Origin: Polyodon spathula
Taxonomy: Eukaryota; Chordata; Actinopteri; Acipenseriformes; Polyodontidae
Assembly: GCF_017654505.1 (NCBI RefSeq)
Contig: NC_054555.1
Coordinates: 9,058,335-9,122,334, forward strand
Length of the DNA: 64,000 bases
Direction of reading: 5' to 3'
The translations under genes were made by a program, and so were the position numbers. The notes under the pieces were generated by a model. That model saw only the letters and a list, made by a program, of their open reading frames with translations, was not told the DNA's origin and did not search any database. Below, one piece after another: positions 1-44,600 of the stretch; the stretch's first letter is position 1; every line of letters starts with the position of its first letter.

Positions 1-2062
1 AATTGCACCCAGGGTAACTTTTCACTTTAGATTGACCTTTGAAAGGTCACCGGTCAAAGGGGAATTAATTTCTGAACTCAGCATGTCTGAAAACCCCCAG
101 GTGAATCTTTGTAGGACAATCTGAGACAGACGGGCAACGGCACTGGTTGAGTTGGCATGGAATGACCCTTATATAAGAAAATATGGGCAAATGGGAAAAG
201 GTCTGTTGACTATACAAGTCATGTTTTAACAACTGGGCTGGTACCTTCTGTTGATTTACTGTTTGAAGATGAGTCGATACTGTTAATTCTCTATCTTTTT
301 CTTTGATGACTACATAAACTAATCATTTTGTTACATCATTTGTCTTGCATCTGATTGGCTAGTTATGCTGAATTGTCTGTCATGCTGTACTAGCTGCAGC
401 ACTAGAATGTTCAGTATTGAATTCAGTTCAGTATTGACATTTAAAAGCTTTGTGTAACTTGGCAAGATAAACTGAATGTCACTGTGCAACATTTGATGTG
501 ATATCAGTAGAGAGCCTTATGCATGCCATCATGGTGTTCAGGGACGATTTGCTTTAGACTCAAGAGGGTGATGATAAAACTGGCTGATGACCTGCAATAA
601 ACACATCTAAACAAAACTAAATGTGATCTTGATTTTAGTAGTTTTTTTACTGGGTGTAAACAATGGCAATACATTCCTGGGAAATTGTTTTAAAAAAATA
701 TGTATATACTATAGGGTGTGCTAGAGTTGCTCTACTGCATCAAAGCAAATCCCAGCATGCAAGTAGCAGTAATGCGCTACTGTACTACTGATGAATGAAG
801 ACCTGAAAGAATCGACTGGGCATCTTTTTTTACTTGTCCTGATATTGAGCCTTTCCTCTGTCTTCTTTATAACATAGACTTCCAAGGTCTATGTATCAGT
901 AAGGGTTTGGCCTCAAAATGTTAGTCCCATATATAATAATATCTTTATTTTTATATCGCGCCATTCATAGTGGATCACCAAAGAGCTTTACAGAGGTAGA
1001 CTGTGAACTGTGCATTATATGCAGAGTCACTTGGAACAGGACATTGATTTAATATCTCATCCGCAGGATGGAGCGCAAGGAAGTTAGTTGACTTGCTCAG
1101 GGTCACACAGTGCGTCAGTCAGTGACTGAGGTGGGATTTAAACCAGTGACCTTCTGGTTAAAAGCCCTGGACTTTAACCACTGGACCACATTGGCCTCGA
1201 CAACTGTAATGAGAGGGATTTCAGGAAACTTAAAGATTAAATGTATGGAGTTTTAACAGCACTGGCTCTGATAAAGATCTGCAATAAAAAAAAAAAGTAT
1301 TGTGTCATTGTACAGTACATTACATTGTATTCATATTTAATGTGACAATCATTTTACCTGTGAGAACAGTATAACATGTACCAAAAAAAGTATAAAATGA
1401 TCTCCTCTGAAACCCTACTAATGTTTAGAGATGTGTGTCTGAACACTGCTACTGTGAAATTAAAACATGTGTGGAATAGCAAAGCTTGATCATACGTGCT
1501 TTTGTTTTCAAATTTAGGAATTGGAAAGATTTACAAATAGTGGTCATTCTTAAAAAAAGTTGGGGAGCTCTGACATAGAGAATGGTATTGAGAAGCTCTT
1601 GTATGCCAAAGAATTACTTTACCAGTGCAGGTAGCAAGTCACCAGGAAGGAACAGTGTGGTCTGCCTTTATGCAATGAAAGTGATCAGAAAAAACTGGGG
1701 GAAAACAAAAGAATATGTTTGCACATGCACACTTACACATACAAGAACATCCCAAACATCCATCAAAATACAGTTTTTACCAGTGTACACTTTAATGATA
1801 TAAATAGCATCCCTGAAGGACAGTCTTACAGTATGGAAGATTAGGAAATGCAGTTTTAAATAGATTCTCTGCTAGTATTCATCCATCATAAAAAATACAG
1901 ACGGTTATTTTAAATACATCTCGGAGTAGAAGTGACATATAATGGATATGTCTGAATCAATTACTGCACCACAGGTCATGTTGTCTTCCTCTATTGAGGT
2001 GACCCTTTTAACTGATGAATCGTTTTAGGTATTTATCATGTTTTGTTTTTTTGAAGTTGCAG
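1..2062. other. RNF130 intron 1 (3' part)
   Basis: AT-rich non-coding sequence upstream of the first visible RNF130 exon. It contains one SINE (935-1198) and short homopolymer runs. I see no exon encoding the RNF130 signal peptide here, so exon 1 should lie left of the window. Confidence 0.7.
935..1198 (-). repeat. tRNA-derived SINE (minus strand)
   Basis: Read on the minus strand it opens with a box-A-like stretch (GTGGTCCAGTGGTTAAAG) and a box-B-like stretch (GGTTTAAATCCCA). It continues through a conserved body and ends in a tail reading GCGCGATATAAAAATAAAG followed by AT-rich repeats. Internal Pol III promoter boxes plus a LINE-type 3' tail are the hallmarks of a tRNA-derived SINE. The family name is not certain. 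Confidence 0.7.
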
Positions 2063-2251
2063 ACCGTCTGGGTTGTGACCGTCAGACTCGCTTCCTTGTC
2101 CCTCCCAATACCAAGCACTGGGTTGCACTGCTGCATAGAGGAAACTGTACCTTCAAGGAGAAGATCCTGAGAGCGGCCGCCTTCAATGCCTCTGCTGTCG
2201 TCATCTACAACAACATGTCCAAGGAAGAGACCATCACCATGGCGCACACAG
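2063..2251 (+). CDS. RNF130: RNF130 exon 2 (PA domain)
   Basis: Acceptor TTGCAG and donor GTAGGA bound a 189-base exon entered with two bases of a split codon and left with one. It encodes the second half of the protease-associated domain, starting DRLGCD and including [15 protein letters not shown] and ASAVVIYNN, all close to human RNF130. Two N-glycosylation sequons (NCT, NAS) fit a lumenal domain. There are no in-frame stops. Confidence 0.92.
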
Positions 2252-8200: not shown

Positions 8201-9555
8201 TTTATTATCATTTCTTAGTACTGTACCACTCTAAATATATGTGTTGGGGACTGTGCAGTAACCAGAGCGTCACAGATCTTTATCTAAAGACATTTGTTTT
8301 AGATTCATTTATGACTTATGATTGGGCACACTAACAATTCAAGAGGGCTGAACATAACTCTGAAGTTATGAAAAAAACTACAAAATTACAGGTCTGTAAA
8401 CTGGAGGGACGCTCAACCGTTCTTCAGTGACTACTGCTTAAAATCATTTCTTTCAGAGGTAGACATCGCAAAAGGTGTCCATTCATTATTATAATTTTTT
8501 TAGACTGACGTGCAACAGTAGCTCAAACAGAAATGCTAACTATAATATTCTGAATTTCCTACAGTATTGTAAACAGAGATGTTTGTTGCAGGTACCGGAG
8601 ACATTGTGGTGGTGATGATCACACATTTTTGCTGTGCTGAATAGCAGGGTAACTTTTTATTGTAAACTGCATCCACGTAACCCAGAGGTAAAATCCCATT
8701 CATATTTTTGTAAAATATAGAAGAGGTAACTTGCCATGTCTGCAATGAGTTAAAAAATATCAGTCTTTTTGGTTACATTAGTGGCTTTCAGCCTGATAAC
8801 TATGGTACACATTCAAGAGAAGACCCTGCATGGGTAGCAATGGTTTACTGAATAAATAAATAAAAAATAACATCAGACAATCGGGATTAAATGTTGTGAA
8901 AAGGCAGCAGAAAATGTGTTAAGTGCATGGGATAACACCAGCCTATTTTCCATTTTCCATTATTGAGTGCTGTTGTCAGCATGTACTGTCACAGTTAAAG
9001 ATGTTGGATTGATTTTCTGACCCCATGCATGGAGTAGCCACCATAATCCAAAATAAGGGAATTGTGGCTCCAGAGTTCAGCATGTCAGTTTGGGCTTTCT
9101 GTCAAATCTTGAATCAGTTTGGGTAAGTCTTGAATCAGTTTGGGTAACCTAAAAACAAAAGAATGAAAATAAGTAGAGGACTTTCTTTAAATAATCCACG
9201 CACAGCTTGAATGATAAATAAAAGGTAAATCATATTCAGGTTACAACATTAGGTTGTAAAAAGTGCACCAGACCATCTGCTGCTTTCACCATGCATTCCC
9301 CTGTGTATACACTATTCATGTGTGCTGATTTTGTTATTATTGAAATTTTGGGTCAGGGCGTCGTAAGTTACATATAGGATGCCAGAAGGAAAACAAAAGC
9401 ACTTTTATTATGGGTCATTTTATTTTAATGTGTGGCATTTTATATGCAAAGATGAGCTTTGTGGTGGGCTTGTATAATGCAGTAGTGCTCAGAGTCTGTT
9501 ATTGTGGGAGTGCCAATTTTAAAGTGATTTCAATATCATAAGTGGGTAGCAGTTT

Positions 9556-9602
<47 letters not shown>

Positions 9603-11013: not shown

Positions 11014-11087
<74 letters not shown>

Positions 11088-14000: not shown

Positions 14001-17000
14001 GAAGGACATGGTTGTTTTGTACTTGAGAATATTTCAAGAATAGCAATTCTGAAAACTGGATTCTGCCAGTGTACATATCTTCTGGGAATTCTCTTGTACT
14101 TGTGTTTTGTCAATGATTAATGTTAAACACTTCAAGGTATAAATGTTATTGATCCCTAAGGAGGTATTCTTAAATTATCCACTTACCTAAAGGTGTCTTC
14201 TAAGTGGTACTACCATCCAGAAAGTAAGAGCTTTTAATTTCCAATGTTGGCTAGTTGCATGCAAAGAACCTGTCTATGCAAGGCAGGATAGATGCAGGAT
14301 ACCAGTATCACTTAGAAAAGTACTGTATGTACATTTAGTTGTGCTTGAAAATTCAGCATTAGAGATTTAAAAACTGAAGATTTGTACATATGAGAAACCT
14401 GGAAACAATGGATTGAATGTGAAACCTGCTGTTTTTCAACAAGTTCTTTTAGAAAAGACACAGATTTGGGAAGCTGTTTGGTCACTTGAACAGTCAAACT
14501 GTACTAGTTGTACTGCACGTTGAACATTTCCAGATGCGCAATTGAAGTGCACCGCACAGAATCAAGTGAGTGTCCACTGAGACTCTGACATATTTTAGCT
14601 TTGTTTTGGCAGCCAAGTGCCCCTTTTGGCATTTGGACATAACAGTCTTTGTTCAAAGCCTATCAAGGCACTGCAGTGCAGAATTGCTTGTTCCAAGATT
14701 CAGTCCTGAATGTTACAGACTTTTCCATCACTGTAACTATAAAATGATACAAATTGGAAAGGTCTTGTTTTTGGATCTTTAAGGAGCATTTTCAAATGTC
14801 ATTTAATCTCTTTTATACATTTCCCTTACAATTATACGGCGGGTGCAGTCGTTCTGAGTAGTTCAGGGTTACATTGCTCCACTATTGAGATATCACTGTT
14901 TTGCCTTTACCTGGCTTGAACTGCTTGGAGCCACCCCCCACCTAGATAAGCAGAGCCCATGTTTGAATATTCATGTCACATGATTTGAATGGAATGAGGA
15001 AGGCTGTTCAGGCCCACCACATGAGATTCTCCAAACAAACAAGTTGAAATCAATGTAAATGTTGATTTTATGATAGCCTACTATTACTAACAGAACCTAG
15101 AACTAAACAGTAAAGGAAATTAAAATGACGTGCTTTTTGTTGACATGTCAATTTTCTGAATGCTATCTATCCAAATAGTCGTTATACTTCAATGTGCATT
15201 TCTGTTAACGTTTGGTTCCAGGAAGCTTCATAAATTACTATTTTTTTTTTTTCTGTTTCAGCGCCAGCTTGGAGATGCAGCTAAAAAAGCCATTAGCAAG
15301 CTTTCCACTCGGACTGTGAAGAAGGGTGACAAGGTAAGGGTTAATTAATTTGTTATTTTATTTACAAAAAAGAACGTTGTTTGAAATGTTTATCCTCAGA
15401 ACGTTCTTTAGCATTTGTTAGATGGATTTATGACACTTGCAAGGGATTATTTTGGGCTGTTAGGGTCAGTTATTTATCGACAAACTCAAAAGCCACCACA
15501 AAAAATAAAAAATAAAAAAAATAAATGCTTGCACGTGATACAGTATGTTCTGCCATGTAATGACAAATGATTTTTGCCCGACATCACAGGAAGAAAGATG
15601 CAGCATGCAATGTCTGATAATGCATTGCTCTGAAATTGACTATTTTAAGTGTGTAATGATGATTTATAGTGACTGTAGAAAGACTCTGTCAGCAGCTGTA
15701 TATGTATCTGATTGTGAATATTTTGTCTGCGCCACACAGTAGCACAAAATCCTTCACACAAAGCCAGGTTAAATCAGGAGGTCTCACAAGGGCCAGTCTG
15801 TAATTTTGAAGAGGTTTATAGAGGGAATGGGGGTGGATTCTAATAATACCCACACTTTACAGTTATGTTAAAATGTTAATTGAAGTGCAGAATTTGGAAT
15901 CAATACAGTGCTGTCAGCCAGAGCACTTGGGGCAGGTCAAGGTAAGGAGTGCTCTTTACATAAATAATACATTGCACTTTCAAAGCTATACCAAATGGGA
16001 TCCTTATGGCTTTAGTCATTAGCTGTAATACATCATTATCTACAGGATATGATCTACAAAGATGGTTCAGATAAGGTGGCCAGCCCATGCGTATTTAAAC
16101 TCAGCTGTTGTCTCTATTGCCTCTTTTCATGTACAGTGCAGGTCTAATTGTAGACATGCTTCTTGCTCAGTGTGGAATGCAGTGTTTCCTCAAAGCAGTT
16201 TATCTGCCTATAAGGGATGTTTTGGCCACCATTTGTAGGGAGTGTGTCTGGGCATCACAGGAAATAACCTAGCCCTGAAAAACTGTTCTTTTAGTGAGTA
16301 ATTGAATTAGTTACCTTTAGCCAGTCCCAAGCTTAGCACGATCCATACAATTTATCTTGGAAGTAGGTAAGGAATGATAGAATAAATTGTTGAAATGGGT
16401 AGCGATTACAGACATACAAACATTGTTTTCTATGGAGTTGGTTGTGTCCTGGCTGGGGTATCCATTCTTGTGCTACACAGACACATTTTTTATTTATTTA
16501 TTTTTTTTGTATAACAGTACACATTAGCACACCACCCACATCCTCCCCAGTGTTAACACCACCCGCCTGAGTTTTACACTTACTTTAGAGCTAGCTATTG
16601 AGAGATGCAGTTTCTAAATTGAGCATTACAGTAAACAAGCCAAAATGCAAGCATGTGGTTCATAAACTAAAGATAACCAAATGGACACAGCCTAAAATCA
16701 GTTCAAAACAACTTTAAAACCTACACTTATATTATTTAACTAGTACTTTATCTGTAGAAAATTATTGTATAATAAGCACATGTACATGTATGAAATGTGG
16801 TTACAAATATAGTGGGTTTTTTTGTTTTGTTTTGTTTTGTTTGTTTTTTTTAATGGTTAAAATGTTTGTAATAATGTTGACTAATATATGACTAGAGTTG
16901 GATACAGGTACTGTAAACCCATAATAGCATTTGGATGTTGGGTGTTCACTAATACTAATGGAAGCTGCTATATTAAACAACCATCTTTTTGATGAAGAAC

Positions 17001-20000
17001 TGTTTGATTTAAGATGAGAACTTCAATGGTGGAGTGAATCAATAATTGAGGCTCACAAAATGAGCTGGGGTCTACAATATTCAATGAGATAGATTGATAC
17101 ATAATGTGAGTTGCACTGCTTCACAGCTAACAGGAATATACTGCTGTGGTACTCTTGAGGAAAATGTCCTCTTAATAACTGCAATAAAATGTACTGTCTA
17201 AACATTGACCTTGACAGGATAACATTTTGAAAAGTTACTCAAGTGATTTACTTTAGTCTACCCTTTTAGTGTATCTCTGTGTGTTGTTCTGAAACCCTGA
17301 CATTTCTCATAAACAGGCAGCACAGAAGTATTCCAACATCCCTCCTTCAGGGACCTTTGGTGGACCATGAGCTGTCAAGACATGGCCTTTGCATAATTTA
17401 CACACTGTCTCTTGAAAGTGAAGTTAACTCAAGCTATTTATTGATGTCTTGTTTATTTATTTTTTTCTTTTAAACTGGGCTCTGGCACATCAAAAATCCA
17501 TAATTGCTGGAGGATGGGGGATTATCACTGTCGCTTCCCTGAACGTCTTTTCATTTTTCTCTGCCTTCCTAATCCCAATTGGAGCATGACGCAAGTAGTT
17601 TATTTGGGGTTAGTCTGCCGGTTGCACTCTCCTCTTCTCTGGCAGACTGACTAATTAGGTAAAGCCCCAGACAATTTGGTTATGGCTTCATAAAATGAGT
17701 TGTTAAAGCTGCAGTCTCCCACATCATGCTCAGTTTTACACGACTATATGATTCCTGGGTGAATGTTTACCACATTCCTCCATACATAGCCATCTGTGTA
17801 CACTGGGCTGAACTATTGGGCTCCAAATCTAGACTAGCTAAAAGTTCCCTTAGACATCTGTTACAGTTCTGTATTCTGTAAATGATCTACCTTGGATTGA
17901 CAGCTTCTGAGCATATCTTGGTAACCCAAATTTGATTAAACTCTTCATGGTCATGAGCGATGAATCTTGAAAACCACTTGTTTGGTTCCCATGAAACTAT
18001 GCATGGCCATTTCTTGCAATGTGCTGTTCTATACAGTAGGATCATTTACTTTTTGTGATACCGACTAATTTTGTTATTCATAGCCATGGCTGGGGAAATG
18101 TTTTAGGCTGCATTTATATCAGGAAATATGTTATGTTTTTATGAGAGAAGTTAATGCCCTGACTGATTCTAACTGTTGCCGATCATTTAACTGCCAAGCA
18201 GTTGTTGAATGTGTCAAAGCTCTAAAGCCAGGGTCTAGTCTGCATGTTTGAGAGGAGAAAAAAAAAAAAGAAAGGGAGATAATTCCAGGTTAAGTCATCT
18301 GTCACTGTGACCAAGCAGACAGAACTAGAAATGAATCACTGCTGACAAGGGAGTAAAGCTGGAGGATCTGTGTGGCTCAGCGGGTTACACACTCAGCAAA
18401 GGAATTCTGGGCTCAAACTGCACATACTGTAGACAAGCCATGCCAAAACCACTCTGCAGCTCACACTGATGTGTAAGGCCTTGCTGGACACCCTGCGGTG
18501 CCCACAAGCACAATAGGCAGTGCACAGGGTACATTTCCTGGAGTACAACCATAATTAATGTACCAGCTGTAGGTCTGTCTGCAATCATCAGCAGTAGTGA
18601 ATTGTAAATAGGAGGTCCCCAGTGAAATTGCCCATACGTGGTGTTGCAGCACAGGTATTTCAAAAATATCTCTCTCATCCTCCAGAACGTGCTTGCTTCT
18701 CCCTGTTTATTTAGTGAGCCATTGATCCCCGAGTTTCGAGGGGCCTGGTTGTTATTTCTGTCTCTCGTTGAAGTTTTAATGTCCTTGCTTCCTTTCTTCT
18801 TGTCTTTTCTGTCAGCAAGTTTTCTGGGTATCAACGCTATATAAATGATGCTCCAGTGATCTCTCCCTCTCTATTCTCTTTATAATCTTACATACCTTTC
18901 TGGGTTACACCGTGTGCACGCTTTCACTGGAAGACTTAAGCAGAGTGATGTGCAGTTGTCAAATGCGCAGTGTTTGTTTGGAAGGTTAAAGAACAGGCTA
19001 ATTGAGACTCAAGAGGAAAGGAAGCACTCTCTGTATAAAGCAGCTGTAGTGCTTGTGCTGTTTTTAACTCCTGTTTTTCAACTGAGATTATGTTTTTTGG
19101 TTCTGAGCTCCCAGACATAAGACAGCCACACTTAGCCACATTTGTACACTTACCTCACTGTAACTGTTATAAACTGATCTGCACACTACAGTTTATATAT
19201 TTATTCATTCTAAAAACATTGCAGTCTAGGAAGAACCTTGTGTAATCAAATTCCACAGGCCTGATTCGGATGCAAGTGCAAAGATGTATCCAATATTATT
19301 AATATAGTAAGAAATAGCCTCATTGGAGATAGGAGCAGTATGATACTTGCTATTATTTCCTCTTTCAAACACACTTTGCACTTGCTTCAAAATTCTAAGC
19401 AGTATATAATATGCTCTCCCTGGCTATCCTCTATAGTGCTGTAAGATAGAAACATCCAGGCAGCCATGTGATCTTGGTGTAACCCTGGAGGTGAGATTAA
19501 TTATTTCATCTTTCTTGCTCAGGCCCAGCCACTACTATTACCAGTTATAGCAACCCACGTGAAACAAGAACAAGACCTCTCATTTGCTCTTTACTGGTTA
19601 AGTGATTTTTTTGGTAAATGTGGTATATTTGTACTGTGTATATCCTAAAATCATTTCTGTTTTGTCTGTTTTTCAGGAAACAGACCCAGACTTTAACCAC
19701 TGTGCAGTTTGCATTGAAGGATACAAACTAAATGATGTAGTCCGCATTCTGCCTTGCAAGTAAGTCTGCCTACTATGAGCACATGATGCCTTGAAAGCTT
19801 ACATTCATAGCTTTATAATCACACTCAATGAACGCTGAACACTCCCTGATATTCAGTCCTATACCTTTCTCAGCATAGGCTACTAAATATGCCAAATTGT
19901 GTGGTGGTTTTATGATGTAGACAGTTGCCTTCCCAGGTTTTACACCGGATGCACATATTCTACGGTGAGGTGGGTATCTAATGAAGACTCAGAACCCCAT

Positions 20001-23000: not shown

Positions 23001-25635
23001 AGGATGACTAATAAACAAGACGCTAACCAATGGTCTGACATAATATGTTATGAATGTTATGAATTCTCACATAGTTCTTTGTTATGCATCTGGAAACAGC
23101 TGTGTTGCTTCTCCTTTCTTTTTCCTTAAGGGAATATTAGAACATGTGACATTATCAATGGTGCTAAAGATCTTTTCATGCTTCTGGTTGTTAATTCTTT
23201 TATTTATTTTTTAAAATAATGCAGACATTAAGAAACTGCTTCTTCCTGGTACCTAGTCAAGACTCTAGCTGCAGTCCGGCTTTGTGACCTACAGCACAGG
23301 AAGTGATTCAGTACCAGGGAGCAGCGGCATTCTCTTAACCTTTACAGTGGGAACCTAAAACAATCAACATATTCCCAATGAGAAAAACTTTCCTTTTAAA
23401 TGGAATGTGTTTCCTATAGAACAACTAGCTATTCAATTCAGCTGCAGTTTTCTATTTGAATTGAAATAAACTGGACAAGGTGTATATATTGCCATGCACA
23501 TGCAGCACCTGTGTGCAAGTTTCTCATGTGTCTGCGCTTTTGAAATTTCCTTTTTTTGCCCCTTCCTGGCTGGGGGTCTACCAGGATCTGATGGTTAGAA
23601 GATGATCATCGTTCATCTGCAGCCAGAATGATGTCTTTTGGAGCCTTAGTGTCTCTCTAGGTTCCTACAGAGCATATTAGATTACTTACTAATGCTCTTG
23701 CTAGGTAAAGTCAGCTTTTAAAGCTTACTCAACTCAAACTAAAGACACTCAGAAATTGCATAGGGCATCCCCATGTGAAATATTTACGCATACAGTATGT
23801 ATGTTCACTGAAATAGGTCTCAGGCTCTGTATCAAGGTGTGAATAGATGGTTGGTGTCTTGGCATGTTACTTGCACAAATTTGGGTCAAAGAAGACATGT
23901 TTGAATCCAGCTTCAGGATAATAGCTTACTAAATATGTTTTTATCAAACATAGTCACACCTGCTGAGGGGCTCTGTTGTTCTAGTAAGATCTAATAGTTA
24001 GTTATTTCAAATGTTTTATTAAATGTTGAGGTGCTTGTAACAGGACCGAACTACTAATATCTGTTTTGATAAGCATACTTAATTAGCCTGAAAGAGCTTT
24101 AATGGAATAGAAATACATTTACGTCACTGATGCATACATGTACAAAGAGAAAGACTGTGTTCTGCATTAGAATAGAAGACTCCATGAAGCTAAGTCAAGA
24201 AAGTGCAAATCAATCTGTAAAAGATAAAAGCTACAAGTTTTGAAGTAAGTGAATTAATCCTGTTACCATTAAGCAAAAGAATATTGATTATTTCAGCAAC
24301 AATTCAGTTCATTCTTGATTTGTTTTACCTCAGAAATTCTTCTCAATTAAAGATTATGCAATTGTTTCTTAGCCTTTTATGAAAATAAAGAATTACAAAT
24401 AAATATACAGTCATAGAACTCTTGCAACTCGGTGGCGTTGTGAATATGGTTACTGGGGAATGATAGAATGAATTGGCTAGACGATCAAAAGATTGCATCA
24501 TAGAAAATGTTCTGAAGGTATTGTCAGGATTTGAGTGGTGTGAGAAAGGATTGAAAGTTCAAAAGTCACTCACAAGTCTCCACTATTCTCTAATCACAAA
24601 CACAAAACTAAACAGAGCACTCCAGAGAGTTAGTATTTCAGTGTAAGGGGTCGTACTCACGTAGCTGTGACCCCTTTGTACTGCCAAACTCCTCCCTGTG
24701 ATCAGCCCGGCGCCACACTATCCAATCGTTGCGTGTCCCACAGCTGATAAAAATGGATTTGTTTAGCAGTTCTTTCTACATTCTTTCTCCAAAATGGCTG
24801 ACTTCCGGTTCCGTCCTACCATCAAGTTGGGCCATCTCTGTAAAAGCGTACCACCAACCTTACCTAGTGCCCTTCCTGGTCGGAAGGTAGATTTGCCGTG
24901 CAGATTCCTTCTCTCCTCGTCACAGGTTGGTAGCAGATTCTTTGAGCCAACCCTGTAGGGCATGGAGCAACCACCCAGCATGGTGTATGTGTGTTCATGT
25001 GTGTCAGTTGTCATCTCATTCAAACGAGATGACAGCGGCACAATAAAACGAATGGTAAGAGCCTGAGCTGTTAGAGTAAGAGCACAGCTGTTAGATGCAC
25101 ACATACCTTGTAGACAAATGCTGGTAATGGACTGTATAAACGGGATACCATTTCACTAGTTAAAGTCAGTTATAGGACATTGATGGTATTTCTCTGTGGT
25201 TCTCAACCCTAAGCCTTAGTATGCAACTGATAAAATTGTATATCTGAAAGAACAAGGGGCAGTGGGGGTCTGCATAGGACAGTTAGAGAAAACAACGAGA
25301 ACCTCTTATCTATTGGTTATCCATATCCTACATTTAATAACAGTCAACATGTTTTGTTTTTCCTCAGGCATGTCTTCCATAAAATGTGTGTGGACCCCTG
25401 GCTGAACGAACACTGTACCTGCCCCATGTGCAAGCTCAACATTCTCAAGGCCCTCGGGATTATGGTGAGCAAGATCAGCCTTTCTACGGTTTGGTACTGT
25501 TTCCCTCTTAATCCTGAATCTGTAAAAACACTGCTTAAGTTTGAGCTTTGGTTAAATCTTTCCAGTTTGTTCGTGTGTGAATTACTCTATGTTTTTGTGG
25601 TTTTTGCACACAAAAGAGTAACGACAGTCATTTCC

Positions 25636-25696
<61 letters not shown>

Positions 25697-28600
25697 TACC
25701 AAGTAGTTAGTATCCATTATCAGTAAACCACAAGTTTTTTGTTTTATTCATATTTGAAAAAACTGGTTGTTTGTGCCACCTAGTGGGAGAAACATTATAG
25801 AAACAAACGCATTGTATTAAACAGGTTGCATGCAAAGGTTTTTTGCACGATTGAGCCAACCTATATTGACAGCAGTTTTTGTTGTTGTTGTTGTTGTTTT
25901 ATTAAAGCCAAACCTACCCTGTGTGGACAATGTTGCCTTTGACATGGACATGATATCCAGAAGTCAGACGTCCAGCCAGAGATCAATTCTAGGAGATTCG
26001 ACCAATGAAAACTCAATCAGCCTCGAGCCCCTGAGACAGTCTGGGACGTCCCAGATCCCTTTGGAGGCTGAGCTGACGCCTCGCTCTGGAGAGATTAACA
26101 TCGCCGTCACCAGTAAGAGCCCGTCCTTTTCAGCATAGCTTTAACTTTGCCAATGCACAGGACCTTCCGGATGTTTTTGACAGACACCCTGAGAATACCT
26201 TTTCCATTAGAAACCTTATGATAACCTGCAAGCATTAATCAGTGAATGACATTTCCCTGTGAACGCTGTCAGTCACATACCATTATTTCAGCTAACTTTG
26301 CTATGTTGATTTTAAAAGGCTGGTAACTGCACTGTACTGTAATGTACTAGATACAATACAACACGAACATGCAATCATAGAAAGACTTACCAAGAAATGA
26401 AGTCAAGTTAACAAAAGCTTTGCTTGTGCCTTATATCTGTGTGGCCTAACATCTACCAATCTGGGATTCATTATTTATTTTTTTCAAAGGTTCATGGTCT
26501 GATGCCTAAACTTAATCTTTTTACAAACTAGTATAGACGGTAATGTAATATCTCTGAGAAATCGTCCAACAATGGGTCAAGATGTTTTCATTTTAGAAGT
26601 CACTGTAGAATGTAAAGGCAAAGTAAAATCTGGATTAAAGAGCACCTGTATAACAGGGTTACCTGGATTTATATTTCCAGTGTTACTTTAAATCACTATC
26701 TGTCTATCAAGACCCCTTTTTGATCATCTCCTTAGGAGTTAAAAGCAGGTTGTAATTATCTCTTTCTGGGGATCTGCTGTACATATGTCAGACTTCAAGT
26801 TGGGCTAATGAAATCTTGCCAGGACATTTGTTACAAGAATAGCTCAACATGCTGTAAAATGTAATGTAGGTCAAGATATGGCAGCCTGTCTGTATTATGT
26901 TTACATTTTTGTAGTTGTATATTATGGAAGTGTGGTGAAACTTTTATTTTGTCACAGATTTACATCAGAATATATCTCATGCTGACCTAATTGTGTCATT
27001 TCTGCAATGCGATTGGTTACAGCATTTAAACATGGCTGTTTTGATGGTACATGTGGTTCAGTGGGTGGCGTGTATCTCATCTCATCTCACCTCCTAGCTC
27101 TTTAAACTGCCTTGCTGCTCATCTGCATTCAGTCTCCTCACAAACCTGTAACTCACGGCAACTAAAAACAAAATCCTATCAGAGATACCCACCCCCCACT
27201 CCCCTTCCTCCTCCCCTCTTCACATGTTAAGTTGTTTTCTGTTATTGCTTGTCTCATCTACTGGATGCTGACAATGTTGAAAAGTAAACAGTAGCTGCAG
27301 GCGATGCTGCTAATATGATTTTAATAATGAAATTTCACATTTTAAGAGCATTTCTTGCCTATCAGGATTAACAAGAAATTCATGTCAGCTTTTGGGGAGA
27401 CTTGATATCTCCAAGCTAGATTATGAAAGTGCTGTAACAAGCAATCATAGCATTAATAATATAGGTCTCTCGTCACCCATTCCTCTTAATGTCTAAAAGC
27501 AAATTATGTTCTCATTAAGGAAATAAACAAACTTGCTTTTAAATGCAGAGTCGTGTTTCTCCAGCAGAATCGAAAGAGGAAATTTGATCAGTTATTCCAG
27601 CAGTAGCAGAAAATTCAGCCCTGATGTGACTCCCCCCTTTCCAGTAGAAGAGACCATATTTTTAAATTTAAGCCTTTAAGAATGTGCAGTGTTACATTGT
27701 CTGATATAATGTTCTTCGGCTTAGTGCCACTTTTAACTCCTTGTGAAACAACCTTGCAAAAGGACAACTATAACTTTAAATAAATTCAGTGTCTTATATA
27801 AAATAAGTCGCACAAAAATGACCGCTGTGCTGAGGGAAGTCTTATTTACCGGCTACAGTGTTGAAGGAGTTAAATGGTATATGGGGATTGTAGGGCCGCA
27901 ACTAGTAACTGTTTACTGAACTGAAGTAGGGAAGTATAGCTTTGGCTCTGGAAGTGAATCCATTTCTTCAGTTAAGAAATCTACATATTTAAGAATTGAT
28001 ACCAGATTAACAATTACATATTTTTGTTCTGAGCTATGGAGTACAGTTTCAAGAAAGTACAGTAGTTCTGTTTTGAATTGTATTGTAGTGTAATATGTAT
28101 GCAATATCCTGTTTATTTAGTAGGCTGTAAAATGATGTCTGTTTTGTTTATGTTTTATGTGTTATGTGAGTATGTGTGGGAAATTAGTTTAGATAGCAAT
28201 CAGTAAAAGGCCAATCTTGTTTATTTTTTATGAAGGCATATTATGTTATTAAAATGGTGAAAGTAAACACAGCTCTCAGTAAAGGTTATTATGCCCCAAT
28301 GCTCTTCCCTTCAGGGATACACAATTAGCCCCTGGCTGTGCAGAGTCAGACCAGGGTCTCATAGCTGCCAATCTTCGATTTCAGCCACCATGCCACACTA
28401 ATGCTTTCAGGAAAGAGGGAGAAACCAGTCAGATGCCATCACATATGAAAGCTAATATACTATGGCAGATTGAAAACCTGCGAGTAGGAAACATTTCAGT
28501 GGTTTAAAATCATCACATATAAAGTGAAGGTAATTCTTTTAAAAAGTTTCAGTATCATACATGTTTTGCCAACTCTAGCTAAGTATTGATATTCATTCAT

Positions 28601-30238
28601 ATTAATTTTTCACAACGCAAGAGTTTACTGTACAACAGGGCTACTCAACCCTGGTCCATGGGGGCTGCATCACTAAACCACAACTTTTGAAGCACTGTAG
28701 TATTGCACAAACAGCACATGGGCTTATTTTTAGTATACTGTTTTGTGTGGAAATCTCATGGTTTCTTTGTCAAGTATAAATGCCTGGGGGCTAAGACAGC
28801 TTAAAATCCTGCATTGAAGTACGATGCATTATCTTATGTATAGGTCCCTATGCCTGAGCACATCTGCCTGTACTGGAATATGTGACATTTTTCAATTATT
28901 TTTCACCAAGTTGGCAGCATTTTTATATGTAGTGTAAACTTTGCACATGGTGGAAATTGCTTTAAAATCTCAGCAACAACTATCTGTTTCAAGTTGACAT
29001 GTTTTGCTTTTTCTTTCACTGCACTGCTTCTGTTGTTGCCTCTGCAAATATGTTGCAGCAGTACTTTTTAAATGACAGTTTTTTGTTGGTTTTTTTTAAT
29101 GGAATTTCTTCAAAAAGAAAACACATGCCACCATGTGGCTATATATTGTATTGCAGTTTTGGGGTTTTTTTGTAAGGATGTTACGAAGAGACAGAAACAA
29201 ATAACCCAGTACTTCTCACACACCTGTTGAAATGTACTTGAATGCCCTTTTATCTGGTTTTGTATCTCTCACCGTGTTCTTCTTTCACTTCTAACCTCTG
29301 AGAGAAGGGGGTGCCCAGCTTGGTGCTTAGTGTCCTCCTGTGTTCTCTCAGCATCAGCTCTGTTTCTATCTCGCTGATTTCCACTCTCTTGCTTTTCATC
29401 CCGGATGAGCTCTCCTCGCTCTCTTCTGATGCTGCGGCTCTGGCCATCCTCTCCCTCTGTCGCGGGACTGTCAATGGGCATCTTGGGCATCTTTCTCAAA
29501 TAGCGTAGCCCCTCCAGAGTGACTTCCCCTTTCCTTTGTCAACAGAAGAGTGGTTTATTATCGCCATCTTTGGCCTGCTCAGTGTCCTTACTCTCTGCTA
29601 TATGATCATCAAAGCCACTTTTAGCTACTCTACAAATGTGTAAGTACTCACAGCATTTATTTTTTGTATTACATCAGCTGCAATTTTATACTTTTAATAA
29701 TAAAATAAAAACATGTAACTTTTTCACAGAAGTTTCATATCATTCAAATACTTTTGCACTTGTTTGAAAATAGGGCCTTGTGTCATTTTAAAGTGGGGTT
29801 TGTAGGCTTTGTAGAACTTGACTATATGTTTTAATACATTTAATAAAACCAACAAAAACCGAATGTTTTTGATCATTTATAATCCAAGTTTATACCAAAA
29901 GAAACTAAATCATGCAGCCTGTTTCAAAATGATTGTTTTAAAAAAAACATTTACACTAGTACTAAGAAAATATAATCACTGGCAATAAAACATAATTAAT
30001 CTTCATTGTATATCTTTCTGGGCCTGCATGTACACAAAGCGTGGTGCTTCCTGGAATCCAGTGTTTTATATTCATGTCATAAAATTAATACCAAAATGAA
30101 TTTGTTTTGAGGTAATTTGTGGATTGTCAAGTCAAGGTTTCAAACACTCTGGTTTCAAGTTTATATTCACTATCTTAGGATTGCTTCTTAACTCCATTCC
30201 TGGTTGTTAAAAGTCCAGGTTTTGATTTTAATCATGGC

Positions 30239-30274
<36 letters not shown>

Positions 30275-33147
30275 TTTATCTGTTTTTAAAACATAATTTT
30301 AATTTAATTTAAGCAGAATTTCAATTCAATTGTCAATTTTTGTTTTGTGTACACTGGGCAGTATAGAAATAGAGATTTAAGATACAAATGTAAGTTAAAA
30401 CAAATGGCCATCTGGAAGTGGAGTTGAAGAAGCAGTCAGTGGCTTTAAGGTCCTATTTCTCTCATACAGTTTTTTCCCATTTTTATTTTGCAGAGGCGAG
30501 TGGTGTTGAAGACTCCAGCATAGTGACTGAAACATAAACACTGGCAATTGAGCAAAAGCATTTTTTTTATTTTTTATATATTTTTACGCATTTGTAAAGG
30601 TAGTTTAATCATGTGTTTTATGTGCAATGCCTATATGCTTTAACTATTAAAGTAAAACAAAAAATAAATAAATCCACTTGTAAATGGTGTCCCTTTGTTC
30701 CAAAGAATATGAATGCCATCAGCTCATTGTGAATGGCCCTGTAGTGATGGCTTTCTGCATGAGGTATTAATTCTGTTATTAATTATAAGTTTTACATTAT
30801 GTGTATGCATGTCTTTTATAGATAGTTGTTTTAATTCATTGTTTAAATTGTGTGTGAATGTGTTTTTATCATCGTTTTAATGTGCTTACTAATTCAGTTG
30901 CTTTAATATGCTTTAATATTAGGTTTATATACATTATTGTGTAAGTTTCGAGTTCTTTCATTTCCCATCGGCAAAACCAGCTATATGCAGTTTTGCATAG
31001 CCTAACGTGACTCAAAGTCACAGATAGCTGTCTGAGCTAAATGCCAAAAGGCAGGAGATTAGCAGAGTTAGTTTGATAAGGGGCAGGGATACTGAAAGAC
31101 AAGATAGATGTGTGTACCTGCAAGGTACATCATGGTATGGAACCCCCACCTTTTGCCCTGCAGAGGGAATGTGCAATGATAGAGTGGAAGCCCCTATTAT
31201 TGGACACAAGTAAGACAAATGGGAGTGAAGTTAACACTTGTTTACAAAGGTATAAATACCCAGCATTGTAAAGTTTTGTCAGTCTTTTCATCTCTTTCGA
31301 ATTGACTCCATGGATATCTGTGCTTTCTGATACAAACGTATGCACTGAGCTGTACTGAGGCCTTGTCCGAAGTCATTTTAAATTTCGTGCTTATATGATT
31401 GTATTGGAGGTTTACCTTTCTTGTACATAAAGTGTTTTTGAATTAAAAAAAATTTGTTAGCTGAATTTTTTTCACTATAGCCCACACTTGAGTTTCCATC
31501 ATTGCTGATATACAGTCAGATGTTTTCAGTTTCTTATCACCATAGGAAGCTGTGGGATGATTTTTTGGGATTGTGAAAAGGTCTGCAGTATATTGGCAAC
31601 ACAGGCAGTGAAAAAGAAAGTTTTCCCATATAGTCCAGCATGTACTGCTCAAACCTGCCCAGGACAGACTGTCATCTGTCAAGGGTGAAAGAGCAGTTCT
31701 CATTCTCACACTGTGGGTGGGGAAGAAAAACAGGAAATTATTTCATCCAGTTCATGCTTCGGTGTTAAACTACCATAAATACACTCTGAACGTTTGGACA
31801 AATAGATTGAGTAGACCACGGCTGACCTATGGTGTCTCATTAAGCTCCACGATATGGCTTTCTTAATTCACAGATGAAGATGAGCTATTCAGTAGTTTTG
31901 GAAGGAGTCATTCAAAGTACAAAAACAAATGCTGTGTAAGTTTAATGAGCCCAAAAATGCTGAAGCGATCTAAGTCTAGTTCAACTTTTTTTTTTTTTTT
32001 TTTTTGGCCAATACAGCTCTGTCTGTCAAAAAGATTTGACAACTCTGGATTAGACATTCACAGTAATAAGAAATGTTCCCACTAGACTTAGATACATAAT
32101 TAAGCACGGTTTAAATTTAGATCCTTGGATATTAGTCCAGTAAACTTAAAAAATGGGTATCCAGATCATTTCTCGTACATGTTTTCATGTTTTGTGCCAC
32201 CTGTTAAGCACATTTATTATCTTGTGTCCATCGTCACGATTATTGAAATCAGGACCGCTTGTTCAAATCTGATTAACTTTTCATGAATATTGGTTTTAAT
32301 GTTATTTAACACACTGTGAGAGTTATAAATCGATAGTTTCTTGTACTCATTTTAAATATAATAAAACTGTGATTAGTTGTATTAGTATTACCAATATCAT
32401 AGACATTTGTCACTCAGAGATTTGGAGTCTAACTTCCTATTACTTTTATCAGATACAGATCTGCTGCCTGTAGCAGCTATTCTTAGTTGTATCGGATACA
32501 GATCTGGTGCCTGTAGCAGCTACTGCTTAATAAGCAATCACTGGAGGCTTCATTTGAGATATGGATGTGAGGTACTTGGGTTTCTACCCAAAATGATTTT
32601 TTAGAGACCACCAATTAAACATTCATATCCAACACAGTGGACATTCTTGGTTGTGATGACAGTAATACAAGGTCAGTTCATTGTTTTACTATTACAAAGA
32701 TATTTCCCAGTGTAGTTAAACTACAGTCTACCTATACTACTGCTGTGTGAATTTATTACAGTTTCGGGTGCATTAAGTCTATTACTAGCATCTGAGTGCC
32801 TGCTATGTTGAATTAGTGATAGGTGATTGAAAAACTGAACAAATAACACAAACATAGAATAGTGGTTAAAAACTTTAGATTAATGATTAAAGTTCCTCAA
32901 ATATATAGGGGGGGAAAAGTCCATTGTAATCATACACTGTATACAACACATATTCTGTAGCTGCAGGCAGATGGTCTTTGATACCAGTGTCACTGTGTTG
33001 TCATACACTCAACACTCTTCTCCCTGCTTCACCACAGGTGGTCATTTCTTCAGCCGCACCTCCCTGTCCCCTCGAAACTTGGTCTGTGAGATTGAGCTTC
33101 CAGACATCCAGCCTTCTGTGGACCTTTGCGACGATAATAAGTCCTGA
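2063..33147 (+). CDS. RNF130: RNF130 (Goliath-type E3 ubiquitin ligase), exons 2 to end, split gene
   Basis: Single-pass membrane E3 ligase of the PA-TM-RING family; family members ubiquitinate membrane cargo on endosomes. Visible coding exons are 2063-2251, 8592 onward (decayed), 15262-15333, 19677-19759, 25368-25464, 25908-26112, 29546-29639 and 30494-30509, with an alternative last exon at 33038-33147. The PA half-domain, the RING-H2 motif (CAVC, then CKHVFH, then CPMC) and the conserved tail segments match my recollection of human RNF130 nearly residue for residue. TBC1D9B and SQSTM1 downstream repeat the human 5q35.3 order, which favours RNF130 over RNF150 or RNF128. Exon 1 with the signal peptide lies left of the window. 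All exon phases join except around exon 3, where the transmembrane-coding part was not found, so this copy may be non-functional or make only truncated products. Confidence 0.9.
2557..2704. mobile_element. 148-bp foldback hairpin element
   Basis: The whole segment is an imperfect palindrome. The left arm begins GCATGGGGTAGTG and the right arm ends CACTACCCCATGC. The inner arms GGTGGGATGCT and AGCATCCCACC also pair, around a CTTCG loop near 2632. This is a foldback or MITE-like element, with no coding capacity. No clear target-site duplication was seen. Confidence 0.75.
4148..4345. mobile_element. Tc1/mariner-like terminal repeat remnant
   Basis: ACAGTTGTAGTCAAAAGTTT near 4148 and AAAAGTATTCATACCCTTTG near 4245 resemble the outer and inner terminal repeats of fish Tc1-like elements. 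No transposase and no matching opposite end were found, so this is a fragment at best. Confidence 0.4.
4905..5382 (-). repeat. Full-length tRNA-derived SINE, acipenseriform-like
   Basis: On the minus strand the element starts GGGCTCCTGAGTGGCGCATC (box A region). A box B region follows (GGTTCAAGTCC), then a long GC-rich body. Near-matching direct repeats ATGAGGTATTA (4894-4904) and ATGAGGCATTT (5383-5393) flank it as a target-site duplication. GC content is far above the flanking intron. From memory this SINE type is abundant in sturgeon and paddlefish, which is a taxonomic clue and not proof. Confidence 0.75.
7433..7637. repeat. Dispersed LTR-like repeat, copy A
   Basis: This segment matches 41181-41417 through shared blocks such as GAGCTCCCCTA, TTAATGCTTGTGACA, GGAGATCGAGAC and TCACGTGACTCTACCAGC, with indels between them. 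No open reading frame of a retroelement is attached. TGTGACA near the middle resembles an LTR start, so a solo LTR fragment is possible. Confidence 0.6.
8592..8644 (+). pseudogene. RNF130: RNF130 exon 3, decayed remnant
   Basis: After a TTGCAG acceptor and in the phase left by exon 2, the sequence encodes [11 protein letters not shown], matching the first residues of human exon 3 (GTGDIIAVMIT). The match then breaks off. The frame reaches TAG at 8642-8644, and the following GAATAGCAGGGTAA vaguely echoes the expected ELRGK codons. In human the same exon continues through the transmembrane helix, and no such coding sequence was found up to 15261. Skipping the exon would join exon 2 to exon 4 out of frame and reach a TAA within eight codons. 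Either this copy is a pseudogene, or it encodes a secreted fragment, or the assembly is wrong here. Confidence 0.7.
9558..9625. repeat. GATA tetranucleotide microsatellite
   Basis: Uninterrupted GATA units followed by TACATAGA variants, directly beside the left end of the Tc1-like transposon. Confidence 0.95.
9636..11020 (+). mobile_element. Tc1/mariner-type transposon, degenerate
   Basis: Inverted termini CAGTGGTTTGCAGAAGTATT on the left and TTCTGCAAACCACTA on the right bound about 1.4 kb, with TA dinucleotides at both edges as expected for Tc1 insertions. The interior holds a broken transposase, and an AT microsatellite abuts the right end. Confidence 0.88.
9970..10850 (+). pseudogene. Tc1-like transposase pseudogene
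   Basis: The open frame 9970-10407 encodes 145 residues of the paired helix-turn-helix DNA-binding half, including [11 protein letters not shown]. The frame then breaks near 10407. The DDE region continues in other frames, with WSDEAK after the break and [11 protein letters not shown] downstream, where the usual acidic residue after PI is lysine. Frameshift, internal deletion and loss of the last catalytic position leave it inactive. Confidence 0.85.
11021..11086. repeat. AT dinucleotide microsatellite
   Basis: About 33 TA units, beginning at the transposon right end. Confidence 0.97.
13018..13180. mobile_element. Possible MITE with GGATGGAAA-type ends
   Basis: TGGATTTCCATCCAA at the left faces TTTGGATGGAAA and CTGATGGAAACAG to the right, an inverted arrangement common in small fish DNA transposons. 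Boundaries and target duplication are uncertain. Confidence 0.35.
15262..15333 (+). CDS. RNF130: RNF130 exon 4 (juxtamembrane)
   Basis: A T-rich tract and TTTCAG precede 72 bases that encode [20 protein letters not shown] plus KGDK, before a GTAAGG donor. This basic cytoplasmic segment between the membrane helix and the RING matches human RNF130 with few changes. The exon starts and ends on codon boundaries. Confidence 0.93.
15334..19676. other. RNF130 intron 4
   Basis: Non-coding AT-rich intron, with a GTTTT repeat near 16817-16848 and a SINE-like block at 18364-18640. No exon was recognised. Confidence 0.7.
18364..18640 (+). repeat. Possible tRNA-derived SINE
   Basis: TGTGTGGCTCAGCGGGTTAC fits a Pol III box A, and GGGCTCAAACTGC some 40 bases later is a weak box B. 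The following 200 bases are richer in GC than the flanks. No second copy in the window supports the call. Confidence 0.45.
19677..19759 (+). CDS. RNF130: RNF130 exon 5 (RING-H2, first half)
   Basis: The acceptor TTTTTCAG leads into [20 protein letters not shown] and VVRILPCK, closed by donor GTAAGT. It carries the first two zinc-binding cysteines (CAVC) and the third (PCK). The lysine codon is split with exon 6. Confidence 0.95.
20869..21335 (-). mobile_element. hAT-like transposon 5' fragment (minus strand)
   Basis: On the minus strand it starts CTAGTGATGCAACAATTCAT, typical of hAT-superfamily ends. It then runs through an AT-rich leader to an open frame beginning [11 protein letters not shown] and lasting 102 codons with no recognisable catalytic domain. 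A related leader lies at 22160-22320. Confidence 0.5.
22160..22320 (-). mobile_element. Second hAT-like leader fragment
   Basis: It shares AGATTCTGACATTTCTCATC, the AACAGCTTTAG block and the GATTAATCAAATAGTTGAG stretch with 21161-21270 on the same strand, so both are fragments of one repeat family. Confidence 0.45.
24520..25110. repeat. GC-rich LTR-like block
   Basis: A sharply bounded block, starting about TGTCAGGATTTGAGTGG and ending near GATGCACACATA, with clearly higher GC than the intron. A minus-strand open frame of 113 codons (24763-25104) resembles nothing I know. A solo LTR is the simplest reading, but no partner copy or target duplication was established. Confidence 0.3.
25368..25464 (+). 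CDS. RNF130: RNF130 exon 6 (RING-H2, second half)
   Basis: The acceptor CCTCAG leads into [20 protein letters not shown] and [12 protein letters not shown], with donor GTGAGC. It supplies the two histidines and the last three cysteines of the C3H2C3 RING-H2, and the E2-contacting tryptophan in DPW. With exon 5 the set of eight zinc ligands is complete. Confidence 0.96.
25465..25907. other. RNF130 intron 6 with TTA microsatellite
   Basis: Short intron. A TTA trinucleotide array runs 25637-25697, and a GTT array makes part of the polypyrimidine tract before the next exon. Confidence 0.85.
25908..26112 (+). CDS. RNF130: RNF130 exon 7 (cytoplasmic tail)
   Basis: This 205-base exon encodes [15 protein letters not shown], a serine-rich stretch, LEPLRQSG and [14 protein letters not shown], all with clear counterparts in human RNF130. 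It ends one base into a codon with donor GTAAGA. That phase fits both the exon at 29546 and the exon at 33038. Confidence 0.94.
26113..29545. other. RNF130 intron 7
   Basis: Mostly AT-rich and non-coding. The last 300 bases (29250-29535) form a GC-rich block with open frames on the minus strand, annotated separately. Confidence 0.7.
29250..29535 (-). other. Unexplained GC-rich, coding-like block on the minus strand
   Basis: Two overlapping minus-strand frames stay open through most of the block: 29250-29474 (74 residues) and 29269-29499 (76 residues). Both are rich in Arg, Glu and Ser. Composition differs from the surrounding intron, and AACACGGTGAGAG at the minus-strand 3' side looks like a splice donor. 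I do not recognise either peptide. A retrocopy fragment, a repeat or an unknown antisense exon are all possible. Confidence 0.3.
29546..29639 (+). CDS. RNF130: RNF130 exon 8 (C-terminal hydrophobic segment)
   Basis: The acceptor CAACAG completes the split lysine codon and gives [20 protein letters not shown], then [12 protein letters not shown], with donor GTAAGT. Human isoform 1 has a near-identical segment. The hydrophobic run could be membrane-associated. Confidence 0.92.
29640..30493. other. RNF130 intron 8
   Basis: AT-rich and non-coding, with a 28-base poly(A) run at 30243-30270. Confidence 0.8.
30494..30509 (+). CDS. RNF130: RNF130 exon 9a, terminal coding part
   Basis: TTTGCAG precedes 16 coding bases. 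They complete a valine codon and add GEWC before TGA at 30507-30509. Human ends NEVEWF, so length and the EW pair agree. The 3'UTR follows. Confidence 0.75.
30646..30668 (+). terminator. Candidate poly(A) signals of the short RNF130 isoform
   Basis: ATTAAA (30646-30651) and AATAAA (30663-30668) lie about 140-160 bases after the exon 9a stop. A GT/T-rich stretch follows near 30687-30700, as expected downstream of a cleavage site. Confidence 0.5.
31018..31440 (+). repeat. Possible solo LTR
   Basis: A compact block with a TATA-like motif (GGTATAAATACCC near 31249), a short downstream leader and an A-rich end near 31441. That order of signals is LTR-like. There is no second copy, primer site or coding sequence, so it is a weak call. 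Confidence 0.25.
33038..33147 (+). CDS. RNF130: RNF130 exon 9b, alternative C-terminal exon
   Basis: A pyrimidine-rich tract and CACCACAG precede 110 bases. In the phase left by exon 7 they encode [20 protein letters not shown] and [16 protein letters not shown], then stop at TGA 33145-33147. The codon bias is coding-like and GC is above the flanks. Splicing exon 7 directly to 33038 keeps the frame, whereas splicing from exon 8 does not. It would replace the hydrophobic C-terminus with an acidic soluble tail. I infer an alternative isoform; no transcript evidence is available here. Confidence 0.7.
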
Positions 33148-41600: not shown

Positions 41601-44600
41601 CATGGTCTACTGTATGCACAGTTTAAGATTCCTGACAGGATGGAAAGATGTGAATTGCATCTAGCTGTTTTTTTACACTGGTTTATTTTCTGTTCAGGCC
41701 TGCTGGTGGGCACCCTGGATGTGGTGCTGGACTCCAGTGCGAGAGTTGCCCCCTACAGGATTCTTCATCAAACGCAGGATTCGCAGATCTACTGGAGCAT
41801 TGCCTGTGGTGAGGACTGTGCATCCACATGTGTAAATGGATACTCCACAGAGTATTCAGTGTTGCTTTACAGGAAGTGGCATGCATGTATAAACATATTG
41901 AACACAGTATTGATCTATGCAAATCAGCCAACTGTTATGATTAAAAAAAAAAAAAAAAAACTAGGACACCTAGTAGTGCTGCATGAACTGATTATTCGAG
42001 TTGAACTCTTCACATGAGGTGCTTATAGTCAAGTGAAGAAACAGCTGCTTGGATTTGTGATCATTGATGTATTTCCTGGACTCTGGAGAACATCAATTTA
42101 CACAAATCCTAGCAACTGTCTCTTCAGTTTTGGTGGTGGTGGTGGTGGTGGGGGGGGGGGGGGGGGGGGGGGGGTTGGTTTGGTTTTACTTGGAATGGTA
42201 AATTAGCCCATTCAAAACCAATGATAACATTTTCATGCAGCACTGTTCTGCAATAAAGTCTGGAAATAAAAATCGACAGCTGAACATTTGTTTTTTCTCA
42301 ACTCCAATTTACTACTCCAGTTGTTAACCCAGGCTGTCCTGTCCTCCTCTCGCAGGTTCCTCTCGAAAGGAGATCACAGAGCACTGGGATTGGCTGGAAG
42401 CAAACCTGCTGCAGACTCTGTCCATCTTCGACAATGAGGAGGACATCACCACCTTCGTCAAGGGCAAGATCCAGGTACACCAGGCTGGGCTTGCATATTA
42501 GTGGTTCGGGTGTGTGGTAACGGGTAGTCCTGCACATGGTGTTAACCCCTGAGAAATCACTGCAACCGCAGTAGACAGTGACCTCTGTCTCAGTAAATCA
42601 CACAAAACAAAGTCAGCCTTTGTTTTTTGTTTACTCCAAAAACTCCAGTTCCGATTTGTGACCTTTAATACCTCAGTTTCATTTTTTAAAGCATCCTTCA
42701 AACATGCCTTTGGTGAAGTACAGTAGCCTTTATTATTGATTTTACTGTTTTAGATGAGTAAAACAGGTTCAAAAGGCATTGAATCGCAAAAGGACACTCA
42801 GTACTGCATCTCCAGCCAAGCCTCACCCCTTGTTGGCTGTATTTTACTCATACCTCTTTATAGACATGAATACTGATAAATCCTCTCCTGATCACTCGTT
42901 TTATCGCCAAACTCCTCAATAATGTGATCCAAATCATTATTTTATTACTGTAACATCTCAAAAAGATCTGCAAATGCCTGTGATATTCTTTGAGTGCTGG
43001 ATGCAGAAGCAGCTATCTCCTTTGTTTATGTCCGTGTTATCTCAATAGTGCATGGGGCTATGAGATACACCCTTTTTTTTCCCCCCGGCTTCATTCGGCT
43101 CCTATCGGTCGCACTCAGCCATCTAAAGGTTTTCTCTGCTTTTTCCGGAGAAAAAAAGACTATAGACCTGTGCTTTATGTCTTTTTCATGATATCGGACT
43201 GGAAAGGGAAAATTGTAATGTCAGACCTGGTCCGACGTAGGACCGCAAAGAGTTAGTTATATGGTAACAGAATTATTGCAAAGTGAAGCTAAGTGTTTCT
43301 GGCTGCTCAAACTGTGTGAAATGATGTCTCTGGTAGCTTATTAAGCATAAAAACATATATTGTACTCTGGCATTAATATTGAATAGGTAAAAGTAGGGTT
43401 TTCTTTAAATTAAGAATTGTCTCATGTTCTACTGTATGCACAGTTGTGTCGCTTTTTAATTCCAGTTGCATTTTCATTTCATGGAACTAAATTAATTAAT
43501 TGTAACACATTCACATAGAATTGAACTGTTAATTATTTAGTTTGCACTCTTTGTGTGTGAAATAACTTTTGGTGAAACTTGATGAAGTAACTAAATAATC
43601 TACCTCATAGTATGAAGAATTTATTTACAAGTAAACTTGCCATATACTTAATCTATATAACATTAATAAGCTTAATGTGATATAAGATTGTCTGCGTCAT
43701 CTCAGTTGTGTGTGTGTGTGTGTGTGTAAAGGATATTACCTCACAGCCTGCTTGCTTGCTGTGCTGGTGTGTGAGGAGGCAGGGGGTGTCATATTTCAAT
43801 TGCCTGCTAGTCAAGATAAGGCAGTCAGAGTTTTGAATTGCGTTTGTGCTTAGAGACTAAGAGATTTACTTTCTAACTTTTCTGATTTCTGTTTATTATT
43901 TGTGTACTTAATAAAATACTACTATTGATTAAACATTCCTTGCGTCTGCGTGTGGTATTTCTAACTCGTCAAATAAATATTGTTAATAAGAGAACTAATC
44001 AACCCAGATAAACATTAAATTATCAATTATTGAATTGAATGTATGATTACTGGTTGGAGCTAAAACTAGTCCATTTTTGGCAGATAATGACCACCCCCAG
44101 CCAATCAGAGACCAGATTCATCACAAACGGTGTATGATGCATATTAATCACACATTATGCATTTTTGCACATGCCACCTTAAAGTGAAGGGCCAGGTGGC
44201 TAGAACTGCTCTGCAGTTGATGTGGATAACTATTTCAGTGCCAGAGGCTGGGGATGATCGTGTGTTTTTTTGGGATTTCAGGGCATTATTGCCGAGGAGA
44301 ACAAGAATAAGGAGGTTCCCGAGGACGAGGATTGTGGTAAGTTCCGTGAGGCGGAGCTGAAGATGCGGAAGCTGTTTGGAATGCCGGACGAGGAGAAACT
44401 GGTGAATTACTACTCCTGCAGCTACTGGAAGGGGCGGGTCCCTCGCCAGGGCTGGGTCTACCTGAGTGTCAATCACCTCTGCTTCTACTCCTTCCTGCTG
44501 GGAAAGGAAGGTGAGTGCTCATTGTGGGGATAAGGACTGTGAACTGTACTGCAGCTAGTCTGTTTCACTGGGAGGATATAGGTTTAGGATTACCCTCCGA

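Follow-up and report, generated by a model that had tools for sequence, protein, structure and literature searches.

RNF130 and TBC1D9B in two collinear blocks

The window analyzed here is a stretch of 64,000 nucleotides from the paddlefish Polyodon spathula (C22:9058335-9122334), and it contains most of an RNF130 gene together with exon stretches of a second gene, all on the forward strand (Table 1). RNF130, the homologue of Goliath, is a PA-TM-RING E3 ubiquitin ligase; the Polyodon spathula record P0002 carries the names RNF130 and GOLI ligase. Exon 1 falls outside the window, at the upstream positions -13675 to -13399; it is open and encodes the start codon and a hydrophobic N-terminus. The next identified gene downstream is, from human synteny, presumably TBC1D9B.

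Table 1. Positions of RNF130 and TBC1D9B features in the window.
Feature	Position	Strand	Remarks
RNF130 exon 2	2057..2251	+	Open; encodes most of the PA domain; length 195 bp on C22 and on C12, with 5 mismatches between them; C12-like splice sites (acceptor ...gaag, donor gtaggacc)
RNF130 exon 3 remnant	8592..8623	+	First 32 bp, against 251 bp in the C12 exon; acceptor tgtttgttgcag; aligned to C12 exon 3
Junction filler	8624..8628	+	5 bp opposite 1105 bp of C12 (exon 3, 219 bp; intron 3, 886 bp)
In-frame TAG	8642..8644	+	Intron 3 sequence; TAG also present in the C12 intron
Possible cryptic donor GT	8649..8650	+	6 of 8 consensus bases; 3' of the TAG; out of frame with exon 4
RNF130 exon 4	15262..15333	+	Open; splice sites like those of C12
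RNF130 exon 5	19677..19759	+	Open; first part of RING-H2
RNF130 exon 6	25368..25464	+	Open; second part of RING-H2
RNF130 exon 7	25908..26112	+	Open
RNF130 exon 8	29546..29643	+	Open; read as last exon, ends in TAA
RNF130 alternative last exon (SGHFF...NKS)	33038..33147	+	Open
TBC1D9B, nine exon stretches (A-I)	44282..53226	+	Pfam matches to GRAM and Rab-GAP TBC; all nine open on C22, the C12 copy broken

A second RNF130 copy lies on contig C12, where it is open over eight exons and its spliced product is identical to P0002 through residue 393, as far as the alternative last exon. When the window plus 30 kb of C22 upstream is compared with 120 kb of C12 (C12:28880001-29000000), collinearity extends across about 91 kb of C22, nearly the whole of the fetched stretch; the chain consists of 77 matches, each 100 bp or longer, and its 74,797 alignment columns are 83.0% identical when gaps are counted. 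The corrected mismatch distance over the body of RNF130 is 0.104, and the two gene copies share exon order, phases, and the next identified gene downstream. From this collinearity the blocks probably derive from the genome duplication of sturgeons and paddlefish rather than from a later one; PMC10199039 describes the resolution that followed that duplication as slow and largely lineage-specific. No paper linking RNF130 with paddlefish was found in the literature collection searched.

Exons 2, 4, 5, 6, 7 and 8 have the same lengths on C22 as on C12, with corresponding splice sites, and comparison with C12 revealed no frameshift or extra stop in any of the eight C22 exons other than exon 3. An earlier note on this stretch had described the other visible exons as looking intact, including a full RING-H2, and this agrees with the comparison; the half encoded by exons 4-8 matches Pfam zf-RING_2 with 47.4 bits. 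Within intron 3, positions 9560-11090 hold what appears by eye to be a decayed transposon beside simple repeats, presumably Tc1/mariner-like.

A deletion across exon 3

Exon 3 begins with its acceptor and then breaks off. Read in frame after the final base of exon 2, the remnant encodes 11 residues, which are followed by HFCCAE and the in-frame TAG. In a tblastn search with a human probe the stub alone scores an E value of only 0.12, but the collinear C12 gene has its counterpart at the same place with one mismatch in 32 bases, so the match is not due to chance, and the earlier reading of an exon recognizable for 11 codons and then destroyed holds. From 8629 onward the alignment pairs the C22 sequence with C12 intron 3, and the TAG is thus intron sequence. 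The extent given previously, 8592 to 8644, therefore has the correct exon start and the correct stop codon, although the remnant itself ends at 8623 and gives way to the filler and then to intron 3.

The alignment defines the lesion to the base. In the reversed C12 stretch, base 57147 is the partner of window position 8623 and base 58253 that of window position 8629; as exon 3 of C12 ends at 57366, the exon accounts for 219 of the missing 1105 bp and intron 3 for the other 886. With a probe spanning the junction, the piece of C12 left unmatched between the two flank matches is exactly C12:28941749-28942853. In this assembly the lesion is one clean deletion in which 1105 bp are replaced by 5 bp, and the C22 gene, unlike that of C12, no longer encodes the transmembrane helix or the last part of the PA domain and is without the splice donor of exon 3. 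We also considered an insertion into C12 and rejected it, since the helix is conserved in RNF130 records of gar, reedfish, coelacanth and tetrapods, which identifies the difference as a loss from C22 and not a gain by C12.

End joining may have produced the deletion and left the 5-bp filler behind. The filler, CACATTTTT, occurs once within the deleted segment, and although it could conceivably have been copied from there, it has too few bases to carry weight. No special cause need be sought for an event of this size, as sizeable differences in length occur frequently in this block: they reach at least 500 bp in 20 of the 76 gaps between chained matches.

We searched for the missing segment in the window and throughout the assembly, whose 4204 contigs total 1,541,705,134 bases; because the genome search passes over very frequent words and gives scores to its best candidates only, its outcome is strong, albeit not absolute. 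In the window, tblastn found neither an intact exon 3 nor further exon 3 coding sequence, in agreement with the earlier note, which had found no coding sequence for the membrane helix before exon 4; relative to C12 that sequence is deleted. In the assembly, the best match of an exon 3 probe is C12. The deleted 1105 bp match in three places, C12 itself and exon pieces of 112 bp with 79% identity on each of C1 and C2, and a probe across the C22 junction likewise has three matches, C22 itself and the two C12 flanks. The search thus finds the segment on C12 only, the pieces on C1 and C2 being paralogous, and no second copy of the C22 type was found on any other contig of the assembly. A displaced exon 3 elsewhere in the genome was rejected, because the matches besides C12, on C1, C2, C9, C15, C7 and C20, look paralogous only. 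That the rest of exon 3 was moved by a rearrangement and is restored through distant or trans splicing is accordingly hardly credible: the search of the window did not find the segment, that of the assembly found no C22-type copy of it, and we found no point in favor of such an arrangement.

The deletion could be polymorphic, either heterozygous in this fish or variable in the population, with an intact gene on other haplotypes, or it could be a local error of the assembly, the gene in fact being intact, and this would fit with the finding of no other disabling lesion in the C22 gene and the conservation of the remainder. Against this, the flanks on both sides of the lesion are of the C22 type (corrected divergences from C12 of 0.125 and 0.136), there are no N bases in the fetched C22 and C12 stretches, the junction is exact to the base and carries a short filler, and the C22-type version of the missing piece was found on no other contig. 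A description of the paddlefish genome in PMC8042750 gives a size of 1.54 Gb and a contig N50 of 4.30 Mb, from short as well as long reads at 300x raw coverage; by its size this appears to be the assembly used here. We regard a polymorphism or an assembly error as improbable, though as the chief source of doubt, and the error proposed in the earlier note has become less likely with the C22-type flanks, the absence of Ns in the fetched stretches, and the failure to find another contig with a C22-type version.

Predicted transcripts and products

The losses from C22 leave a full reading frame in none of the transcript forms that we tried. Skipping from exon 2 to exon 4 is out of frame, as the earlier note had stated, and meets a stop at codon 165; skipping of exons 2 and 3 leads to a stop at codon 100; and both splicing of the remnant at the weak donor GT at 8649 and reading through the remnant give a stop at codon 175. 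Rescue by splicing was rejected, given that all four forms stop by codon 175. A stronger donor GT at 8726 (7 of 8 consensus bases) is frame-compatible with exon 4, but it lies 3' of the TAG. The longest predicted C22 product has 174 residues, and in the four forms the RING-H2 half is never joined in frame to the PA half.

A stop codon located upstream of exon junctions is expected to result in decay of the mRNA. The proposed course of events is that a deletion that removed the exon 3 donor, together with the final 219 bp of that exon and 886 bp of the intron behind it, would leave a transcript that does not encode the helix and in which the PA half could not be joined to the RING half, the stop being met 18 bases beyond the break. 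If the remnant were spliced to exon 4, five exon junctions would lie downstream of the stop, and nonsense-mediated decay would be expected. The intact C12 copy would then carry the function, and that of the C22 copy would be lost.

The truncated gene might instead be retained for a secreted PA-domain protein of 174 residues, another of the alternatives raised in the earlier note. The start codon and hydrophobic N-terminus of exon 1 and the open exon 2 would allow for this, and the PA domain is still recognized by Pfam with 44.5 bits. This match covers profile positions 8-88 of 95, however, while the C12 record P0002 reaches 95 of 95; the stop upstream of several exon junctions predicts mRNA decay; and the RING half is conserved to the same extent as the PA half (omega 0.21 each), which is not what long selection on PA alone would be expected to leave. 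A search with the 174-residue product returned 13 protein records, all with identities of 74% or less. A secreted fragment thus gathers no positive support and is very unlikely, whereas the young post-polyploidy pseudogene also proposed in that note is supported by an intact collinear ohnolog, a single clean deletion and eight other exons that are open.

The corresponding search with the RING half returned 144 records, and none among the best 120 of the 144 is named as from paddlefish. The 90%-identity cluster of P0002 has 18 members from 2 contigs, and it is possible that a C22 gene model is hidden within it. Any model that joined the two open halves on C22 would be an invented protein whose PA and RING parts have no membrane anchor between them, and annotations of this locus should be viewed with this in mind.

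Two records from the sturgeon Acipenser sinensis show irregularities of their own. P0054 (310 aa) is an RNF130 model that has neither exon 3 nor exon 4 and passes from the PA half through a short unrelated stretch to the RING half; this is possibly a parallel loss, or merely a faulty model. P0001 (490 aa), unlike P0054, contains exon 3, but has exon 2 twice in tandem in slightly different form; two copies may have been merged in the assembly, or the duplication may be real.

Age of the break and loss of opposite copies

Over the 352 codons compared, the C22 and C12 copies of RNF130 have 33 nucleotide differences, 19 synonymous and 14 nonsynonymous. The dS value is 0.083, and omega is 0.21 in both halves; the PA half (exons 1, 2 and the remnant) has 10 synonymous and 7 nonsynonymous differences, and the RING half (exons 4-8) has 9 and 7. 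With the remaining exons open and omega at 0.21 in both halves the break looks recent, and it is probably young relative to the age of the gene pair.

We assigned the amino acid changes by eye against the sturgeon P0001 and other vertebrates, eight outgroup records in all, four of which (gar, Amia, eel and Latimeria) were left out from position 394 on because they have the other last exon. Among the 14 differences in the shared parts of exons 1-8, seven are assigned to C22 (positions 32, 34, 64, 243, 369, 401 and 407), four to C12 (130, 295, 375 and 425), and three could belong to either copy (11, 28 and 60). The alternative last exon adds three, two of them C22 changes relative to gar and one unpolarized. 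With this exon included, changes on C22 and C12 stand at 9 to 4 (binomial p = 0.27), or at 11 to 4 (p = 0.12) on a looser count; relaxed selection on the C22 copy may be hinted at by these numbers. That the gene otherwise looks alive, with omega 0.21 in both halves and no clear excess of amino acid changes on the C22 side, speaks against a pseudogene; this fits a recent break, but also a polymorphic or artefactual one.

The neighboring gene is informative about how far omega can be trusted here. On C12 the TBC1D9B stretches contain frameshifts of 11 bp and 1 bp, in-frame deletions of 48, 9, 57 and 3 bp, and a change from AG to AA at the likely splice acceptor. We read the state of the gene from stretches A-I, with candidate stretches J, K and L outside the count; the start of F and the ends of C and I are anchor words and not proven splice sites. 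Omega between the TBC1D9B copies is 0.23 over 549 codons in eight of the nine stretches, stretch H being left out as the anchor words missed it (it is open by eye), and stretch B being poorly aligned in this comparison and better so in a separate alignment. This is about the value for RNF130 despite the many lesions on C12, and omega is thus a weak indicator of a broken copy at this locus.

Taking these observations together, we consider it very likely that the C22 member of the RNF130 ohnolog pair is an unprocessed pseudogene, broken by the single 1105-bp deletion with its 5-bp filler, and that the C12 copy is functional. Loss of one copy is the common fate of genes after genome duplication. 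Unprocessed pseudogenes left by whole-genome duplication have introns, a collinear intact partner and a disabling lesion, as does RNF130 on C22, and nothing sets the latter apart from typical cases, one lesion having been found and the rest being clean. The event is an ordinary one.

Each of the two neighboring ohnolog pairs has one broken copy, TBC1D9B on C12 with several lesions and RNF130 on C22, so that the neighboring genes have lost opposite copies. The locus offers a clean example of duplicate resolution after an old genome duplication, with neighbors resolved on opposite chromosomes, one by several lesions and the other by a single event. More tentatively, and with considerable doubt on our part, this opposite-copy loss may include an RNF130 loss on C22 so recent that it still segregates or is in the first stage of decay. 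If so, the resolution of a gene pair would be observable in living paddlefish populations.
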